NCBI GenBank assembly: GCA_024280855.1
Contig: JAJRPG010000091.1
Coordinates: 1 to 39,060 of the forward strand
DNA from: Planctomycetota bacterium
GTDB taxonomy: Bacteria > Planctomycetota > Phycisphaerae > UBA1845
DNA length: 39,060 nt
Reading direction: 5' to 3'
Shown here: positions 3,966 to 31,344 of the stretch, in pieces
Position numbering within the stretch: position 1 is the stretch's first letter
Layout: each line of letters begins with the position of its first letter
The notes under the pieces: model-generated
Seen by the model: only the letters and a program-made list of their open reading frames with translations
Database searches by the model: none
What the model was told of the DNA's origin: nothing
Translations under genes and position numbers: made by a program

Positions 3966-4089
3966 CAATTTTCTCCATCGTTAAGATAGTATGCAACAAA
4001 TAACCAACCGCCTCACCTACTTAAACGCCGCCCAAGCTGATTTTTCCTTCTTTCTGCACTTATTTTTCATACGACGCCTCGCACAGGAT

Positions 4090-4251
4090 GCAAGACAGTT
4101 TCGGCGGGATGGGCACACCGAGCGGGGTCAGAGCCGCATGGCGCCAGCCTGCGGGCCGGATGAATCAACATGGCCAATTGTATCCAGCCGCTGGTATGCC
4201 ACCAGGCTTGCGCCAGGTGCTCTGACAGGACTCGCGCCAAAACTGTCTTAC
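4090..4251. repeat. Nested inverted-repeat structure around paired-arm element copy A
   Basis: An outer inverted pair flanks copy A. The left arm at about 4090-4108 contains AAGACAGTTTCGGCGGGA, and the right arm at about 4231-4251, reverse complemented, contains AAGACAGTTTTGGCGCGA. It encloses the 96-bp element, so the whole could fold as a long interrupted hairpin. Confidence 0.6.
4129..4224. repeat. Paired-arm repeat element, copy A (96 bp)
   Basis: The left arm is 4129-4156 (starts CAGAGCCGCATGG, ends CCTGCGGGC) and the right arm is 4197-4224 (starts TGCCACCAGGC, ends GGTGCTCTG). The arms are imperfect inverted copies sharing CAGAGC and GGCGC(A/C)AGCCTG with a 4- versus 5-nt mismatch bulge. 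The 40-nt interior has no similarity to the interiors of copies B and C. Confidence 0.8.
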
Positions 4252-4421
4252 ACCCTCTCGCACATGCTTCAAGGCTCTCGTTTATACCATTTTCCAGCGA
4301 AAACGATGCATAAGGCCCCGTTTATCCTTCACACTCAAATTGCTGTTTAAGGACTGACGGGCCATAACCGACATGATTATCAGCCCTTTGGCGTTCCCAT
4401 TGGAAAGGCCTCGTATACACA

Positions 4422-6197: not shown

Positions 6198-9119
6198 CTA
6201 TACGCTCAACTTATCCGCAATCCACTGCTTAGCATGAACCAACGCTTTAGTCACCCCAGCCGGGTCACTCCCACCACCCTGAGCCATGTCTGGCCTGCCA
6301 CCACCTCGACCACCCACGAGCGGCGCAATCTCTTTTATTAAATCACCAGCCTTGACGCCTTTTCCCACGACAACCTTGCTCATCCCGGCGAGAAGTGTCA
6401 CCTTGTCGTCATCAACCGATACCAACAACACAGCCGAGGCGTCCGTCTTGTTACGAACCCAATCAATCGCACCACGCAGGGCATCACTCTTAGCTGAGGG
6501 GACTTCGCCAACGACAACCTTTACATCACCAACGACCGTAGCCTCATCAAGTAGCGCAGCCACTTTCTCTTGAACCTCGCCGGCAGAAGCGGAGTCAGCC
6601 TCTTTATCCTGCTTTTTAGCGACCTTTTGCAGCTTTGCGATCTTGTCGAGGATTAGCCTTCGCTTGCTCAATGGAATGATGGAAGTATTTATCCGGTTTT
6701 GAATATCAGAAATACACACAGACATAGACTCGGGGGTTGATTTACTATCGCAAGTCCGCGCGGGCTGAAGCCCGCGGCTCGATAAGACATCAATTTCCAA
6801 CTCAAACGCCTCGCCCGTTGCCACAGCCTGGTTAGCGACGTCGCCCGTCACACCCACCAGCCGGCGAATGCCCTTAGCTACGCCCTCCTCAGCCGTAATC
6901 ACCAACCGCCCCGCTTCCTTACTTGTCTTGAGATGAGTCCCACCGCAAAACTCCACGGAATACTTCATCCACTTAGCATCAGCCGGGTTAGCCAGCATTT
7001 CGTCGATGTCCGCGCCAACAGAAACCACACGAACCTTATCAGGATACTTTTCACCAAATACTGCCCGTAGCGTATTAATCTTACGAGCCGCCTCTTGACC
7101 TACTTCTTTAGTATATACGCAATGGTCAGCCTTGATCTGCTCGTTACACAAGCCGTCAACCCGTGCCAACTCCTCGTCAGTCAGCGGCTTATTATGAGAA
7201 AAATCAAAGCGAGTCTTCTCCGGATCAACCAATGAACCTTTCTGCTGAATGTGATCCCCCAACACGGCCCGCAACGCCCAGTTCAAAATATGCGTACTGG
7301 TGTGGTTCTGCATGATGGGAATGCGGCGATTGCGATCGACGATGACCTTAACACCCTGAGTAAAATCTGGTTTGGCATGTTGATGCAATTCTCCCGAAAT
7401 ACACTTGCCGTGATGGATAAAATATTCGCTTTTTTCAACAACCGCCTTGACCTGAAAGATGCCCGAATCGCACTCGATGGTACCTTGGTCGCTGACTTGT
7501 CCGCCCTTCTCAGCGTAAAAAGGAGTCGCCACTAGAATCAAAGCGCCAGATTCGCCATTCTTTATAATAGGTTTAGAGCCAGATCCGATTATGATGTCAA
7601 AAATCTCGGACTGCAATTCTAAATTATCGTAACCTACAAAACCGTAATTATTATTCGAGTCTGGTCCTAATACATATGAAGTACCTATAAATGTCGCGGT
7701 GTAACGATTTAATCCTGCTGCAGGCTTGTTCCGCGCCTTCTCCCGCGCCACTTCCATCAATCTTTCATACTCACCAATATCAACCGTAAGCCCTTGCTCC
7801 TCAGCCATGAGTTCTGTCAGGTCGATCGGAAAACCGTAGGTGTCATGCAGTTTGAAAGCATCTTCACCACTCACCCTGCCATGATGATGCTTGCGCGAAT
7901 ACTCCGCAGCTTCATTGAAAAGCTTAATGCCACGATCAAGCGTTTTACCAAACGATTCTTCCTCATCACGAAGAATCTCCGCAATATAAGCCACGTTATC
8001 TCGCGGCCGAGCTGCATCCGGGCCATTACGCAGTTCCGGGAAAACATCCCCCATGTGCGCGACCAATGGCTCAACAAGATCACAAAGAAACGGTTCGTGC
8101 ATATTGAGATATTGTCGGCCATAGCGCACCGCCCGGCGAAGAATCCGCCGCAGCACATAGCCTCTCCCCTCGTTGCTTGGCATTGCGCCGTCGGTAATCG
8201 CAAACGTCAGGCAACGAACGTGGTCAGCCATGACTCGATAAGTCACGTCCACCATAAGCTGCTGAGTCTCCGATGCCCCCGGCAACAGTCCCGTATACGC
8301 CGGCGCACCAGTTCGCTTTTGTATCGCGTCAAAAATCGGCGTAAAAACATCTGTATCATAATTGCTCGACTTGCCCTGCAAGAGCGCACAAAGCCGCTCG
8401 AACCCCATCCCCGTATCCACATGCTTCGCGGGCAGCGGCGACAATTTTCCATCCGTCGCCCGATTAAATTGGATAAACACGAGATTCCAAATTTCAATCA
8501 CTCGCGCATCCCCCGCGTTCACCAGCGAGGCCCCGCTTTTGTCGGGTGTAATATCAACATGAATCTCACTGCAAGGCCCGCAAGGGCCTGTCTCACCCAT
8601 CTCCCAAAAATTATCCTTCTTATTGCCGGTGTGAATATGCGTCGGGTCGATGTCCGTCTCGCTCTTCCAAAGCTCAGCCGCCTCCGTATCAGGCTCAAGC
8701 CCCTCAGCCTTGTCACCCTCAAAATAGGTCACATGAAGTCGAGACTTATCAATCCCCCAAACCTCGGTCAACAATTCCCACGCCCACGCGATAGCTTCCT
8801 TCTTGAAATAATCGCCGAAGGACCAGTTCCCCAGCATCTCGAAAAACGTGTGGTGATAAGTATCCTGCCCGACATCGTCGAGGTCGTTATGCTTCCCACC
8901 CGCCCGGATGCACTTCTGCGTATCAGCCGCCCGCTTATAATCTCGCGTCCCCGTCGCCAGGAACACATCCTTAAACTGGTTCATCCCCGCATTGGTAAAT
9001 AGCAGCGTCGGGTCATCGTGCGGAACCACCGGCGAGGACTCAACAATTTCGTGGGCCTTACCGCGAAAAAAGTCGAGAAATTCCTGTCGTATCTGATTAG
9101 CTGTCAATTTAGAGGGCAT
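6198..9119 (-). CDS. alaS: Alanyl-tRNA synthetase
   Basis: Charges tRNA-Ala with alanine in the cytoplasm and edits Ser/Gly-tRNA-Ala. 973 aa, about 100 longer than common bacterial AlaS. The class II catalytic domain occupies the first ~460 residues (TNAGMNQFK at 42-50, TGPCGPCSEIHVD near 177-189, LRRILRRAVRYG near 323-334). The editing domain has the zinc/active-site residues HTSTH (606-610) and C725GGTH729. The C-Ala domain ends with GGRGGGRPDMAQGGG. Residues ~780-789 (SSRGLQPART) are encoded by a 27-bp palindromic repeat sitting in frame in the linker before the coiled coil, a region that is variable in the family. All catalytic motifs are intact, so the enzyme should work. The gene is monocistronic, with repeat-rich DNA upstream. 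Confidence 0.97.
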   Translation of the reverse strand: MPSKLTANQIRQEFLDFFRGKAHEIVESSPVVPHDDPTLLFTNAGMNQFKDVFLATGTRDYKRAADTQKCIRAGGKHNDLDDVGQDTYHHTFFEMLGNWSFGDYFKKEAIAWAWELLTEVWGIDKSRLHVTYFEGDKAEGLEPDTEAAELWKSETDIDPTHIHTGNKKDNFWEMGETGPCGPCSEIHVDITPDKSGASLVNAGDARVIEIWNLVFIQFNRATDGKLSPLPAKHVDTGMGFERLCALLQGKSSNYDTDVFTPIFDAIQKRTGAPAYTGLLPGASETQQLMVDVTYRVMADHVRCLTFAITDGAMPSNEGRGYVLRRILRRAVRYGRQYLNMHEPFLCDLVEPLVAHMGDVFPELRNGPDAARPRDNVAYIAEILRDEEESFGKTLDRGIKLFNEAAEYSRKHHHGRVSGEDAFKLHDTYGFPIDLTELMAEEQGLTVDIGEYERLMEVAREKARNKPAAGLNRYTATFIGTSYVLGPDSNNNYGFVGYDNLELQSEIFDIIIGSGSKPIIKNGESGALILVATPFYAEKGGQVSDQGTIECDSGIFQVKAVVEKSEYFIHHGKCISGELHQHAKPDFTQGVKVIVDRNRRIPIMQNHTSTHILNWALRAVLGDHIQQKGSLVDPEKTRFDFSHNKPLTDEELARVDGLCNEQIKADHCVYTKEVGQEAARKINTLRAVFGEKYPDKVRVVSVGADIDEMLANPADAKWMKYSVEFCGGTHLKTSKEAGRLVITAEEGVAKGIRRLVGVTGDVANQAVATGEAFELEIDVLSSRGLQPARTCDSKSTPESMSVCISDIQNRINTSIIPLSKRRLILDKIAKLQKVAKKQDKEADSASAGEVQEKVAALLDEATVVGDVKVVVGEVPSAKSDALRGAIDWVRNKTDASAVLLVSVDDDKVTLLAGMSKVVVGKGVKAGDLIKEIAPLVGGRGGGRPDMAQGGGSDPAGVTKALVHAKQWIADKLSV
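6755..6781 (-). repeat. 27-bp palindromic repeat inside alaS (in frame)
   Basis: GC-rich palindrome with a TTCA/TGAA loop. Its reverse complement is identical over all 27 bp to 13396-13422 at the end of the O-antigen polymerase gene. Being 27 bp long it adds nine codons (read as ...SRGLQPAR...) without disturbing the frame. Confidence 0.9.
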
Positions 9120-9263
9120 AGTTAAACCTGTTAGAATTAAAGAACCAACGCATCCGACACCTTCGTCGATTTCGCCAGCCTGCTTATCGTTGCGATACTG
9201 TACTCTGCCGTGGGGGATTTTCCAGTTTTACTCCTACAATGCTATAGGATAGGCAAGCCAAAC

Positions 9264-9360
9264 CAGAGCCGCACGGCGCAAGCCTGCGGGCAAGTCATGT
9301 GAATTTTGTGAAGGTTTGACGTAGTGAAGACATGCCACCAGGCTCGCGCCAGGTACTCTG
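9264..9360. repeat. Paired-arm repeat element, copy B (97 bp)
   Basis: The left arm 9264-9291 is identical to the left arm of copy C (CAGAGCCGCACGGCGCAAGC...). The right arm is 9333-9360 (TGCCACCAGGCTCGCGCC...ACTCTG). The 41-nt interior is unrelated to the other copies. The bases just after it (ACATGACTCGC) resemble those after copy A (ACAGGACTCGC). Confidence 0.8.
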
Positions 9361-9391
9361 ACATGACTCGCAGCCAATTCGTTCTTGCATC

Positions 9392-10923: not shown

Positions 10924-11034
10924 GGCTGATAGTTTCCGATTATCGATTGCGTAACCTAAATTTTAATCGCGTTTGACCACGATTCGCCAATCATAGTGCA
11001 AGCGCTCACCGTTTCCAGTACAGTGCGGCAGAAG

Positions 11035-13455
11035 ATGACAAAAAGCCCGAGCCAACCTGAAAACCTACACCCGCGAAGCCAATCCGCCTTCGCCACCGTC
11101 GCCCTGTTCACTATCCTATGCGTCATCGCCCTACGCCCGTTGATTTCAGAATCTTACGACGCCTCGCCAAGCAGCATCACACAAGCTATCTCACAGGTAA
11201 GCGACCCCTCACCGCTAAGAACGATTATTTTCGACCTATCCATCCTATTAGCCACACTTCTTTGGCTGATTGGTAGAACCATATCACGAATAAATTATTC
11301 CAAAAACGAGCCGCGGGCGCAATATAATCCCGATTCATCGGGAGCCCGCGCGGACGCCAACGTGATTCCAGACTCGCAGACGAAAACAAATTACCAAAAA
11401 ACCGGTCTTGAGTGGGGCCTGCTCTTACTAACCATCGCCGGCATCATCTCCTGCTGTTTCGCAGGAAACAAACGCCTAGCCATCAACGCCACCGTCGATT
11501 GGCTATGCCTCCCCGTCATGACAATCGCACTCGTCAACCTCCTACGAACCAGCGGCCAACGCCAATTACTACTCGCCGTCATCATCGCCTCAGCCTGCGC
11601 ACAATCCGCTCATTGCCTGGAGCAATCGCTAATCGGTAACGCAGATGCCTGGGCACATTACGAAAGTATCAAAGAATCTTTTTGGGCGACCCAAGGCATA
11701 TCACTAGACAACCCCACCGTCACGCTCTTCGAAAATCGCATCAAAGCCAATGAAGCTCAAGGCTTTTTACCGCACAGCAACGTCACCGGGTCATACCTGG
11801 TACTCGCCCTATTCCTAGCCATTGGCAGCCTATGGCAGCGATGGCGAAATGGCGGATTCACCTACGCCCCCTTACGAAGTTTCGGCTTGATTCTACTCAC
11901 CGCCGCCATCGGCGCAGGCGTCGTCACCACGCGAAGCTTAGGCGCGTATCTTTCGGCTGTGGTTAGTTTGTTGCTGTTAGCAGCTTTAGTTCGATGGTCT
12001 AAATTCATATCTGCTAACAAGATTAAAATCCTATGGGCGAGTTGGGCAGGCTTCATCATAGCTATCATCGCCACAGTCGGGCATGGCCTATACCACAACA
12101 GCTTCCCGCACATGTCACTGACATTCCGATGGCAGTATTGGAAAGCCTCAGCCAAGCTTATCAGTGACTACTTTCTGACGGGCGTGGGACGAGAGAACTT
12201 CGGCAGGCATTACCTGCAATACAAATCCATCCAAAGCCCCGAAGAAATCTCCAACCCGCATAACCTGTTCGTCCAAGCGGCTTCCGAATGGGGCATTCTT
12301 GGCTTAGCGGGCATAATAGCGATGCTCGTCGGCGTCACTTATTTAATAGCTCGAAGTCGCAACCCGCAAACAATAACAGCCCCATCGCCCCAACAAGAAT
12401 CTTCGCCCCGATGGTGGCTATGGGGCATCAGCCTAACCCTCGTCGTCGCCATCGTTCGCATCCCCATGCTAGGCTCGACCGACCTCAACTTTATCTACTA
12501 CGCCACCGTCATCACCGCCGCATCTTGGCTATTAGGCTTCACCTGCATAGCGTATGTAGCCACTCCTGCGAGCTATAGCGCAAACCGCTACACGATCTCC
12601 GCCATCTTTGCCGGCCTATTCGCTTTCTTGCTGCACGACATGATTAACTTCGCTATGTTCGTACCAGCCTCTGCGACCACCTTTTTCGCAGCCTTAGCCT
12701 TAATTATTCCTGTTTCACGAAACATAAAACACATCGCCCCCAAAGCCAATCAATACCCCTGGTTTTGGCCCATTGCCAACCTGACGGCACTTGGCGTGGT
12801 GTGCGGGTTGACACTTTTTCCTTCGTACCAAACTTTTAGATGTCTGGAAATTCTCACACCAATTAAACAAGCGGGGCTCGTAAAAGACCGAGAACAACCG
12901 CCATTCAAATACATTCCCGAATCATGCTATGCAGACGAATCAGAACCCGCACCCTTTATTGAATTAGCGAATTTGTGGATTCTAGCTTCAGTTGAGAGAG
13001 AACGACCGGCCAATTATTTTCGCAGAGCGAACGATGTATTATACGAAGCCAAATTGCGAGACCCCTACGACATTCGCTTGCAACGCCTGATAGCCAAGGC
13101 TTCAATTGAACTAGCTCGCACTGATGACAGTATGCGCGCCTACTTCGCCGCAGCAAAAGCCGCACGAGCAGTCATCGAGTTATACCCTGACGACCCCAAT
13201 GGCCTCATCGACGCCGCCAACATTCAATCAGAAGTAGCCTCAGTCTTGCAAGAAATGTCAATCATGCAAGACGCCATAAACCACTATACCAAAGCGCTAT
13301 CCCTTGACGACGCTCGACCGCAGTGGGAGCGCATTCAAAAATTAAGCGAACAAAAACGAGCCAAGGTAGCAGCCGAAATCCAAAAACTTAAAAAACGAGC
13401 CGCGGGCTTCAGCCCGCGCGGAGCCACGACCACAATAACACCTACAACTAAATAA
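11035..13455 (+). CDS. O-antigen polymerase/ligase-like (Wzy_C) membrane protein with TPR tail
   Basis: About 806 aa. Roughly a dozen hydrophobic segments lie between residues 20 and 610. The Wzy_C motif HNLFVQAASEWGILGL lies near residue 410 after a large periplasmic loop, as in O-antigen ligases (WaaL), polymerases and PglL-type O-oligosaccharyltransferases. The last ~150 residues are TPR-like helices (YFRRANDVLYEAKLRDP, later AINHYTKALSLD). Planctomycete-type members often carry such TPR ends. Start choice is weak: ATG 11035 and GTG 10996 are both possible and neither has a clear ribosome site. Two copies of a palindromic repeat are translated in this gene, at residues ~91-107 and as the last few residues (KRAAGFSPRG...). 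It is followed by a 25-bp-stem hairpin. Confidence 0.78.
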   Translation: MTKSPSQPENLHPRSQSAFATVALFTILCVIALRPLISESYDASPSSITQAISQVSDPSPLRTIIFDLSILLATLLWLIGRTISRINYSKNEPRAQYNPDSSGARADANVIPDSQTKTNYQKTGLEWGLLLLTIAGIISCCFAGNKRLAINATVDWLCLPVMTIALVNLLRTSGQRQLLLAVIIASACAQSAHCLEQSLIGNADAWAHYESIKESFWATQGISLDNPTVTLFENRIKANEAQGFLPHSNVTGSYLVLALFLAIGSLWQRWRNGGFTYAPLRSFGLILLTAAIGAGVVTTRSLGAYLSAVVSLLLLAALVRWSKFISANKIKILWASWAGFIIAIIATVGHGLYHNSFPHMSLTFRWQYWKASAKLISDYFLTGVGRENFGRHYLQYKSIQSPEEISNPHNLFVQAASEWGILGLAGIIAMLVGVTYLIARSRNPQTITAPSPQQESSPRWWLWGISLTLVVAIVRIPMLGSTDLNFIYYATVITAASWLLGFTCIAYVATPASYSANRYTISAIFAGLFAFLLHDMINFAMFVPASATTFFAALALIIPVSRNIKHIAPKANQYPWFWPIANLTALGVVCGLTLFPSYQTFRCLEILTPIKQAGLVKDREQPPFKYIPESCYADESEPAPFIELANLWILASVERERPANYFRRANDVLYEAKLRDPYDIRLQRLIAKASIELARTDDSMRAYFAAAKAARAVIELYPDDPNGLIDAANIQSEVASVLQEMSIMQDAINHYTKALSLDDARPQWERIQKLSEQKRAKVAAEIQKLKKRAAGFSPRGATTTITPTTK
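11307..11354 (+). repeat. Long-loop variant of the 27-bp palindrome, inside the O-antigen polymerase gene
   Basis: The outer arms CGAGCCGCGGGC and GCCCGCGCGGA are those of the 27-bp repeat, but the TTCA loop is replaced by about 25 nt. That insert carries its own small hairpin (TCCCGAT...ATCGGGA). It is translated in frame in a loop between membrane helices. Confidence 0.75.
13396..13422 (+). repeat. 27-bp palindromic repeat at the 3' end of the O-antigen polymerase gene
   Basis: Identical over 27 bp to the reverse complement of 6755-6781 in alaS. Here it is read in a different frame (RAAGFSPRG) and supplies part of the C-terminus, ending 33 bp before the stop codon. Confidence 0.9.
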
Positions 13456-13460
13456 TGCAC

Positions 13461-13540
13461 CGTCATTCCCGCGCAGGCGGGAATCCAGTCTTGAACTGTC
13501 TATACCACTACACTAGATTCCCGCCTGCGCGGGAATGACG
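13461..13540. terminator. Perfect 25-bp inverted repeat between convergent genes; likely bidirectional terminator
   Basis: Arms 13461-13485 and 13516-13540 are exact inverted copies (left arm begins CGTCATTCCCGCGCAGG) separated by 30 nt. It starts five bases after the stop of the O-antigen gene and ends seven bases from the stop of the opposing lipoprotein gene. A related single arm occurs at 17897-17924. Confidence 0.75.
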
Positions 13541-16113: not shown

Positions 16114-16523
16114 TTAAAGAGTATATCGAAGAGTCGCAAATAAAAGGTTTAAAGGTTTAGCGCCACCAGAGCCGCACGGCGCAAGCCTGCGGGCATGCCT
16201 TACGCGTTTATGCCCCATGGACGTTGCCCCAGATTGCCACCAGGCTAGCGCCAGGTGCTCTGGTCGCTTGCCATCGTCACTCAAAACAAACCAGTCTCAC
16301 CCGTCACCACAGTTATCGGACCTTACTCCACCCTCACCTTCCACACCTTACCTTTCACCTCAAAACGAATAAACATCCCATATTTTCATCACGCTACCAC
16401 TAGCAGGTGTCGATGCCTTGGCTTATACTGCCCGGCTCTTCGCTGCTTGGCTCAGCTTCTTAGCGGAGAAAATCGTGCGATTAGGGTAACTTTAGGTGCT
16501 AGTTTTTTGGGAATGAGTTTGTT
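16114..16523. other. 410-bp intergenic region with repeat copy C and the rpsU leader
   Basis: Contains paired-arm copy C (16167-16262). A TTATACT sequence near 16423-16429, about 95 nt before rpsU, could be a -10 element, but no good -35 is seen. A 90-codon open frame at 16255-16527 overlapping the rpsU start is not convincing as a gene. Confidence 0.5.
16167..16262. repeat. Paired-arm repeat element, copy C (96 bp)
   Basis: The left arm 16167-16194 is identical to that of copy B. The right arm 16235-16262 (TGCCACCAGGCTAGCGCC...GCTCTG) differs from that of copy A by one base. The 40-nt interior is unrelated to A and B. Confidence 0.8.
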
Positions 16524-17841: not shown

Positions 17842-17896
17842 CGTCACGCACTGCCTAACCATTTGGTAATGCCCCGTCATCCCGTCGCAGCCCCAC

Positions 17897-17924
17897 CGTC
17901 ATTCCCACGAAGGCGGGAATCCAG
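17897..17924. repeat. Single arm of the CGTCATTCCC...GGCGGGAATCCAG repeat
   Basis: Closely resembles the left arm of the 13461-13540 hairpin and is itself partly palindromic (ATTCCC...GGGAAT). It lies between convergent genes ending at 17841 (+) and 17976 (-), where it may act in termination. Confidence 0.65.
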
Positions 17925-28847: not shown

Positions 28848-30038
28848 TTACGCTAGTTCCATATCTAAATCTTGCGCCGCTTCATTCATTTCCGTCGCAT
28901 GGGCTGATCGATAAGCGATAGCCATTAACAATCCGACTGCTAAAGAAAAGGCCACGATGCCGCTGCCCCCGGCTGATATAAAGGGTAACGAAATTCCCGT
29001 GGTGGGGGTGACGACTGTTACGACGGCGATGTTCATAGCTGCTTGCAGGCCTAGCGTTGTTGTTAATCCAAAGGCTAGTAATCGCTCGAACGAATTTACG
29101 GCTGACATGGTGATGCGCAGGCCTATCCAGACAAAGGTGCAGTATAGGGCGATGACAAACCATCCGCCGACGATTCCTGCTTCTTCGCAGATGACCGAGA
29201 AAATAAAATCTGTTTGACTTTCAGGTAAGTAGCCGTATTTCTGAATGCCCCCGCCAAGGCCTGTGCCTAGCCAACCGCCGGAGGTAATGGCTGTGAGTGA
29301 TTGGATGGGTTGATAGCCATGACCTTGCGGGTCTGCCCAGATGTTTAAGTATGAGGTTAGTCTAGCCAAGCGGTAAGGCTCGGCTTTTAGCAGGGCTGCC
29401 ATGCCGGCGGCACCGATGATAGCCACCAAGGCAAGGTGGGTGAGGCGACAGCCGCCGAGTAGTAACATGGCGCCGCCGACTAACGCGAACAAACACGCGG
29501 TGCCGAAATCCTCCTTGCCGACCAAGGCAACAAAAACGCCGACTGTGCTAGCTGCGGGTAAAAAGCCGTGAAGGAAGGAGCGTACATCAACTTTGCGACC
29601 AGCTAACAAATAGGCGAGGAAAATGATTAAAGATAATTTCGCTAATTCCGAAGGTTGAAACCCGACGGGGCCTAGACCTGTGGAGAGAGCAATCCAGCGG
29701 CTCGAGCCTCGACTCTGGGAAGCAAGGCCTGGCAATATCGCGAATAACAGGGCTAAGATGGCTAAAACAGCCGTGAAGTATGCGAACCATTTTCGCCGTG
29801 ATTGATTGGCGAATACGAATCGTCCTGTAAGCATAGCTAAGGCGATGGCGACTATCCCTAGCCCAACGAAGATGAGCTGTCGGAAAAATACGCCTTGCAT
29901 CGCAGGCATGATGGAGACTGTTGGGGCCAACGACGCCGTGGCGGAATAGACCATGACTACGCCCAGCGACATGAGGGCAATCGTGGTGGCGATTAGCCAG
30001 GAACCGCGCGACGAGGTGGGTTGCGATATATTATCCAT
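28848..30038 (-). CDS. ftsW: Septal peptidoglycan polymerase FtsW (SEDS family)
   Basis: Membrane glycosyltransferase polymerising lipid II, partnered with FtsI. 396 aa with about ten membrane helices. SEDS hallmarks: SSRWIALSTGLGPVGFQPSELAKL, the catalytic Asp in VGKEDFGTA (KED where QPD is usual), HGYQPIQSLTAITSGG, and SLPFISAGGSGIVA near the end. AAGGATGA lies a few bases upstream of the ATG. The 160-bp gap before it holds a degenerate palindrome (30131-30157). FtsW is preferred to RodA because of location in the dcw cluster next to mraY and murG. Confidence 0.95.
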   Translation of the reverse strand: MDNISQPTSSRGSWLIATTIALMSLGVVMVYSATASLAPTVSIMPAMQGVFFRQLIFVGLGIVAIALAMLTGRFVFANQSRRKWFAYFTAVLAILALLFAILPGLASQSRGSSRWIALSTGLGPVGFQPSELAKLSLIIFLAYLLAGRKVDVRSFLHGFLPAASTVGVFVALVGKEDFGTACLFALVGGAMLLLGGCRLTHLALVAIIGAAGMAALLKAEPYRLARLTSYLNIWADPQGHGYQPIQSLTAITSGGWLGTGLGGGIQKYGYLPESQTDFIFSVICEEAGIVGGWFVIALYCTFVWIGLRITMSAVNSFERLLAFGLTTTLGLQAAMNIAVVTVVTPTTGISLPFISAGGSGIVAFSLAVGLLMAIAYRSAHATEMNEAAQDLDMELA

Positions 30039-30130
30039 CAGCAGTCATCCTTGACGTTTGAGACGAATCTTTGATAACTTACGGTCAGCGTGGCACGATA
30101 GTATTTTGAATGTGCGATTATCATCGTAAC

Positions 30131-30157
30131 TCCGCGCAAGCTGAAGCATGCGGCTCG
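30131..30157 (-). repeat. Degenerate copy of the 27-bp palindrome between mraY and ftsW
   Basis: Matches the alaS copy at 23 of 27 positions, in the same orientation. Differences are in the inner stem, so the hairpin is weaker. It is the only copy here that lies outside a coding frame. Confidence 0.65.
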
Positions 30158-30198
30158 ATTACGTTCATTAAAACTCGTCACAGCTTGCGTTCCTTTTA

Positions 30199-31344
30199 CT
30201 AACGAAGTTTCAGTGTGGCTAATGCCAATCCGGCGAACATGGACGCGACTAACCAAAATCTGACCACGGTTTGAGGCTCACTCCACCCGCTCAGGTGGAA
30301 ATGGTGATGGATAGGGGCACAGCGATACAAACGCTTGCCGCCGGTCCATTTGAAATAGCCTACCTGGGTGATGACGGAAATCGCCTCAATGACAAAAACG
30401 CCGCCAGCAATGAGTAACATTAACTCTTGCCTGGTAACGACAGCGACGAAACCGATTAGCCCACCAAGCGGCAATGAGCCTGTATCACCCATGAAAACGC
30501 GCGCAGGGTGACAATTGTACCAAAGGAATCCTAACGTAGCGCCCAAGATAGCCCCGCAGAGAATGACCAATTCTCCGCTACGAGGGATGTGCGGTACTAG
30601 AATTTTATGAGCAAGTTCCTGGGTTCCTACGATGTAAGTTAAGACCATGAAAAACAACGCAGCCATCGCGACGCATCCGGCGGCGAGTCCGTCCATCCCG
30701 TCGGTTAAATTTACCGCGTTGGATGTTCCGGTCATGACTAATACGGTAACTATCATAAAAGCAAATGTGCCCAAAGCTAAGCCTTGTTTGTAAAAAGGCA
30801 CGGCTAGGATTTTATATGCGGGCACGGACATAGGGTCGACGAGCGGGTTGATCGTAGCCATGTTGTTTCGGCCGTAGGAGTAAATGTAAAACCCTATCAC
30901 TACCCCTAAGCCGATTTGAAACAGCAGCTTTTCGTACATTTTCAGACCGTCGCGAGAAGAAATCTGCCGCCTTTTCGCCGTGAGCTTTAGCCAATCGTCT
31001 ACGGCGCCTAACGCGCATAGCCAAATCAAGCAGACGATTGACATTTGTACATAAAAACTGGAAATATCCGCTAATAATACGACGGCGAGTAGTACGACGG
31101 ATAAAAGAAAAATCCCGCCCATAGTCGGCACGTTACTCTTGTCTCGCGTTAGTTCATTCAACGTGGCGTGGTCGTACTCTGGTCGGTCGCCTAATTTCCA
31201 CTTGACTAACACACGAATGAAACGCGGTAGAAATAATAAAATAGTAACGAAACAAAAGAGCGCTGCACACGTTCCGCGAAAGAGCGTGTTTTCGTAGGCG
31301 TAATGTTGCCCATCTAGAAAATGTCGAAATAATAAATATAGCAC
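30199..31344 (-). CDS. mraY: Phospho-N-acetylmuramoyl-pentapeptide transferase
   Basis: Integral membrane enzyme making lipid I from UDP-MurNAc-pentapeptide and undecaprenyl phosphate. 381 aa with about ten helices. Signature motifs: KSNVPTMGGIF, GAVDDWLKL (catalytic Asp pair), AVNLTDGMDGLA, RVFMGDTGSLPLGG and the HHHFHLSGWSE loop. It starts at GTG 31344; no ATG is available before the first helix and no strong ribosome site is seen, so translation may be modest. murF precedes by 64 nt. Confidence 0.97.
   Translation of the reverse strand: MLYLLFRHFLDGQHYAYENTLFRGTCAALFCFVTILLFLPRFIRVLVKWKLGDRPEYDHATLNELTRDKSNVPTMGGIFLLSVVLLAVVLLADISSFYVQMSIVCLIWLCALGAVDDWLKLTAKRRQISSRDGLKMYEKLLFQIGLGVVIGFYIYSYGRNNMATINPLVDPMSVPAYKILAVPFYKQGLALGTFAFMIVTVLVMTGTSNAVNLTDGMDGLAAGCVAMAALFFMVLTYIVGTQELAHKILVPHIPRSGELVILCGAILGATLGFLWYNCHPARVFMGDTGSLPLGGLIGFVAVVTRQELMLLIAGGVFVIEAISVITQVGYFKWTGGKRLYRCAPIHHHFHLSGWSEPQTVVRFWLVASMFAGLALATLKLR

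Follow-up and report, generated by a model that had tools for sequence, protein, structure and literature searches.

Short palindromic mobile repeats lying in frame inside protein genes, tRNA synthetases included, have already been described as intragenic REPs and Rickettsia palindromic elements (RPEs), and they probably occupy tolerant loops (PMC3733652). In REPIN/REPtron systems, high-copy imperfect hairpins and inverted pairs accompany a single repeat-flanked HUH/Y1 gene, the RAYT (TnpAREP). The planctomycete class 3 TnpA-Y1 enzymes are proteins of ~178 aa with NHVH, W[TA] and YV..Q motifs and atypical high-copy flanking hairpins; the study that described them set aside unexpectedly long proteins, and residence in essential genes was not described in it (PMC6006769). 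The repeat analysed here, which we named E1, shares the general features of the first two systems but differs from both in detail. Its conserved 5' bases are CGAG and not the GTAG or CGTC of intragenic REPs and RPEs (PMC3733652); the GTAG (or GTGG) foot of REPs is absent from E1, and so is the CGTC tag from its consensus. Repeats of the CGTC/RPE type lack a dedicated transposase (PMC3733652), while E1 brackets one in relatives of the genome studied; unlike the REPtron arrangement, that transposase is embedded in frame in host genes, and no cognate was detected in the studied genome itself. With respect to class 3, the transposase copies bordered by a second hairpin (E2, see below) show the Y----Q spacing, but in the E1-type copies the Q is one residue nearer (Y---Q), and the CGAG foot, preceded by A or C and set against the class 3 CnGA foot by eye only, does not clearly match it (PMC6006769). 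Taking the sequence evidence together, we consider it probable (about 0.8) that E1 is a REP/REPIN-type element, spread by an HUH/Y1 transposase, that entered an alanine--tRNA ligase gene in frame and has been tolerated there.

The window, that is, the whole stretch of 39,060 nucleotides that was analysed, belongs to a Phycisphaerae MAG of 4.56 Mb in 112 contigs, 96% complete (G000). A first-pass annotation had pointed out a 27-mer at 6755-6781 with its exact reverse complement at 13396-13422, and both are present in the window sequence. It had also taken them for a dispersed repeat and proposed a genome search with a count of coding copies, which confirmed this: across the 4.56 Mb there are 33 exact matches to the 16-base core and not one to its reversed control, and the 26-base core (GAGCCGCGGGCTTCAGCCCGCGCGGA), at three mismatches or fewer, has 88 copies against 0 for the control. 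Copy number and the lack of matches to the reversed control rule out a chance palindrome. Most of the 88 copies are intergenic (76), the remainder lying inside genes (two) or at C-terminal (three) and N-terminal (seven) gene edges, with coding status judged from the flanks by a codon-usage score and not by a full gene finder. Besides the alaS copy, the only internal one (G000:C69:4145-4170) is in frame in an apparent murD ORF, identified from its sequence by eye rather than through a family search. The copy at 13396-13422 (plus strand), read as RAAGFSPRG, does fall in another gene as first annotated, but it is not internal to it: by sequence match, codon-usage score and congener comparison, it supplies the end, a new C-terminal tail, of an O-antigen-ligase-like protein (Wzy_C, 819 aa; 10996-13455, plus strand) that in congeners ends without E1. 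A diverged copy (81% over 42 nt to that in alaS) is found at about 30118-30159 on the minus strand, intergenic between the ORFs at 28848-30038 and 30199-31344. The congeners G001 and G002 carry 106 and 15 copies, respectively, and at two mismatches or fewer E1 is present in 38 of 60 related genomes. Those AlaS relatives that bear a name come mostly from Phycisphaerae MAGs.

Although the repeat had been called a palindrome, and does form a hairpin, its symmetry is not perfect. The aligned copies depict a stem with a TTCA loop and a conserved bulged C, the conserved 5' CGAG and then a looser tail; the bases on the 5' side of the element show a marked G deficit. Among 170 distinct copies from G000 and its relatives, the bulged C is kept in 165, and in 17 of the 34 copies with two mismatches the changes are compensatory at one stem pair, so that pairing is kept, at four different pairs in all; because these copies were chosen for their closeness to the consensus and subfamilies have a common descent, the counts do not represent independent events. 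Folding energy alone is not distinctive. Most copies are single, and a neighbouring E1 at a distance of up to 300 bases was downstream and in inverted orientation in all 17 observations (both members of a pair being counted). E1 thus has the stem, loop, bulge and compensatory changes of a 20-40 nt imperfect palindrome folding as a hairpin, and the high copy number and mostly intergenic location of REPs, while its pairs have the two inverted units and short spacer of REPINs. The compensatory stem changes and the fixed orientation of the inverted pairs mark it as a probable REP/REPIN-type element, which would be non-autonomous and would act as a single-strand hairpin with its TTCA loop, bulged C and unpaired 5' CGAG.

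The alaS gene (6198-9119, minus strand) encodes an alanine--tRNA ligase of 973 aa (TIGR00344, 885.6 bits; Pfam tRNA-synt_2c, tRNA_SAD and DHHA1). Its E1 copy (6755-6781, core 6755-6780, minus strand) is read as SRGLQPAR at AlaS residues about 780-788 and, as first annotated, keeps the reading frame. We aligned AlaS with its relatives, as had been suggested. The protein of G001 (90% identical) carries the insert, whereas that of G002 (81% identical) lacks exactly 42 nt, or 14 residues, at the E1 site, which is therefore a clean empty site; most other aligned relatives also lack the insert residues. The refuting comparison proposed with the annotation, a look for relatives with the same residues encoded by unrelated codons, thus left its reading standing. 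Since the site is empty in G002 and filled in G001, the alaS E1 is an in-frame insertion, and it lies in a low-confidence loop between the editing and C-Ala domains. The SRGLQPAR core is read in frame as the annotation had it, but the added length of 27 nt and nine residues that it gave has to be replaced by the net 42 nt and 14 residues relative to G002, contained in the stretch 6733-6783 (minus strand) with exact ends that are ambiguous in the alignment. In an AlphaFold model built with 35 sequences (mean pLDDT 87, pTM 0.59), residues 786-792 are below 50 pLDDT, between helices 759-784 and 796-812. Domain matches place this loop after the editing domain (tRNA_SAD, 696-754) and before DHHA1 (866-968), in agreement with the linker originally proposed.

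The sharing of the core SRGLQPA by G000 and G001 could also mean that the peptide is ancestral or functional in AlaS and that its DNA likeness to other copies is coincidental. However, the peptide is absent from G002 and most other relatives, E1 has 88 copies elsewhere in the genome, and the same DNA is read in other AlaS frames in other genomes; the empty site of G002 rules an ancestral peptide out, and we attach practically no probability to this explanation. We believe instead that alaS acquired a single E1 unit (net 42 nt) before the window species split from its closest congener. Its survival may be explained by a length that is a multiple of three, by E1 being open in five of six frames and by the flexible loop at the site. 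From the open frame the insert would be translated, and presumably it is neutral. The annotation had left open whether the repeat was tolerated in the protein or recruited to it, and of the two tolerance fits better. Beyond the core, the two carriers have different residues, as expected for a tolerated sequence, the loop is one of the parts of the model with the lowest confidence, and at this linker other genomes have E1 in different frames or, in G022, a translated repeat unrelated to E1 (PPSPPFARGG). Recruitment for some useful property of AlaS would account for retention in two species whose AlaS are about 90% identical, but in view of these data it seems very improbable.

Insertions of E1 are recurrent in the AlaS of other genomes. 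In G042 and G046 the element occupies the same linker in another frame, read as EPRASARA, and other sites were found at about residue 282 (G001) and at about 414 and 849 (G036). Single alaS genes carry two copies in G020, three in G033 and four in G017, and all five readable frames are used among the AlaS genes of relatives. ValS, the only control gene, also carried E1 in three of the 30 loci fetched (G022, G047 and G049), which, with the apparent murD of G000, rules out AlaS as the sole target.

In the relatives, large inserts are found as well. Those in AlaS contain Y1_Tnp domains flanked by the other hairpin, E2 (read as SRDREGA or PLPYGRGS). A search of ten E1-rich genomes found Y1 genes between inverted E1 copies, open in frame, inside ValS (G020 and G036), LeuS (G036) and PurH (G042), and a later search added in-frame Y1 cases in the PurH of G046, G049 and G059. 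Two members of family f10 have standalone Y1 genes, one with inverted E1 on both sides (G265) and one with several diverged E1 copies nearby (G295). The PurH of G023 contains a different Y1 accompanied by a further repeat (TGLQPVK / RLKTGAT), in what seems to be the region taken by the E1 cassette in other genomes. The E1-type copies have the HUH motif and WT, and of the 31 aligned Y1 copies 30 have both the HUH and the Tyr motif intact, the exception (G048:C5) stopping before the latter. In a tree of 30 Y1 rows, from which G265 and G295 are absent, the E2-type AlaS and ValS copies form a clade of 11 members, each within a host gene (support 97/92), and the E1-type copies with their nearest relatives a group of 10 (93/98), eight scored as in host and two as unclear. 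The second AlaS copy of G048 groups with the ValS copy of G038 (98/95), which suggests movement between genes. Class-wide, E1-type Y1 matches (E<=1e-12) occur in 90 of 397 genomes, many in frames longer than 800 aa and many others of standalone size. The hosts that could be identified, some of them non-essential enzymes, are mostly ValS and AlaS, followed by PurH, LeuS, an MmeI-like enzyme and DUF1156 proteins. A hand tally of in-frame inserts, which mixes Pfam/NCBIfam, BLAST and motif evidence and in which not every insert is E1-flanked, gives about 35 (13 ValS, 12 AlaS, five PurH, one LeuS, one MmeI and three DUF1156). Misassembly is unlikely for G042, G046 and G204, since these are single-contig assemblies, and in G012 the interrupted gene is the sole match of the AlaS search.

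These cassettes suggest how E1 could be mobilised. It would be spread by an HUH/Y1 (IS200-like, REP-associated) transposase, the full form in relatives being E1, transposase and inverted E1, and we infer that this E1-flanked family also mobilised the copies in the window. For the latter the mobiliser is a putative one, because no E1-type Y1 was detected in G000; nor was one detected in G001, and both genomes are E1-rich. The gene may have been lost or left unbinned there, or another mobiliser may have taken its place. The other Y1 genes of the window genome have no E1 in their fetched flanks, for which reason they were rejected as cognates. It could still be argued that E1 is mobile but unconnected with the E1-flanked Y1, being moved by an unrelated enzyme or by those other Y1 genes of G000, and that the cassettes merely share its tolerant loops; a genome with other Y1 genes and no E1-type one, and the presence of E1 and cassettes in the same kinds of loops, agree with this. 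On the other hand, the Y1 genes of one group have inverted E1 copies close by on both sides, inside more than one host gene and, in one instance, where the Y1 stands alone, and the second Y1 group shows a different hairpin, E2, in an identical layout. We thus regard an unconnected mobiliser as rather unlikely, and mobilisation of E1 by its flanking Y1 family as the better explanation.

Large inserts in essential enzymes are expected to be costly, and the cassettes have hairpins at both ends, so that removal from the RNA or the protein (intron or intein), or skipping by the ribosome, might leave the host enzymes no longer than usual. An Rfam search of 17 carrier loci gave no match, catalytic group I/II intron RNA included, and no Hint splicing domain appeared among the Pfam matches of the carrier proteins, results on which an intron or intein identity was rejected. 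In addition, the frames are open throughout, which neither RNA removal nor skipping would require, and we see only a slight chance that the inserts are eliminated. Inteins are likewise mobile in-frame coding inserts of essential enzymes, but they differ from the present inserts, which have no Hint domain or sign of splicing and sit in variable loops, not in conserved active sites. Judging from the open frames, we infer that the Y1 cassettes are translated with their hosts.

It is conceivable, with the arguments for and against about evenly balanced, that the two Phycisphaerae HUH/Y1 groups exist mainly as internal domains translated within host enzymes, of which many are essential (ValS, AlaS, PurH and LeuS). 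Host expression would replace the element's own promoter, only in-frame insertions would survive, and the element would be protected, since losing it imprecisely would disrupt the host gene; the alaS insert would then be the smallest, transposase-free unit. The open-access literature yielded no account of Y1 cassettes residing in essential genes and no paper dealing with RAYT and aminoacyl-tRNA synthetases together. These observations connect the planctomycete repeat E1 with a likely transposase and point to essential enzymes as recurrent insertion targets of mobile DNA that appears to be read through and not removed. Should the cassettes indeed be translated, a tRNA synthetase can retain a transposase as one of its domains without any self-splicing, which would represent both a selfish-element lifestyle and a route of protein growth for which the open-access literature searched offered no description.

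Two further repeats were observed in the window. One, CGTCATTCCCGCGCAGGCGGGAATCCAG, forms an inverted pair at 13461-13540, directly past the second E1 copy, and recurs at 17894-17924. The other belongs to a third dispersed family of more than 100 nt (CAGAGCCGCACGGCGCAAGCCTGCGGGCA ... ATGCCACCAGGCTTGCGCCAGGTGCTCTGACA) and occupies three intergenic sites, at 4085-4256, 9254-9371 and 16157-16273.
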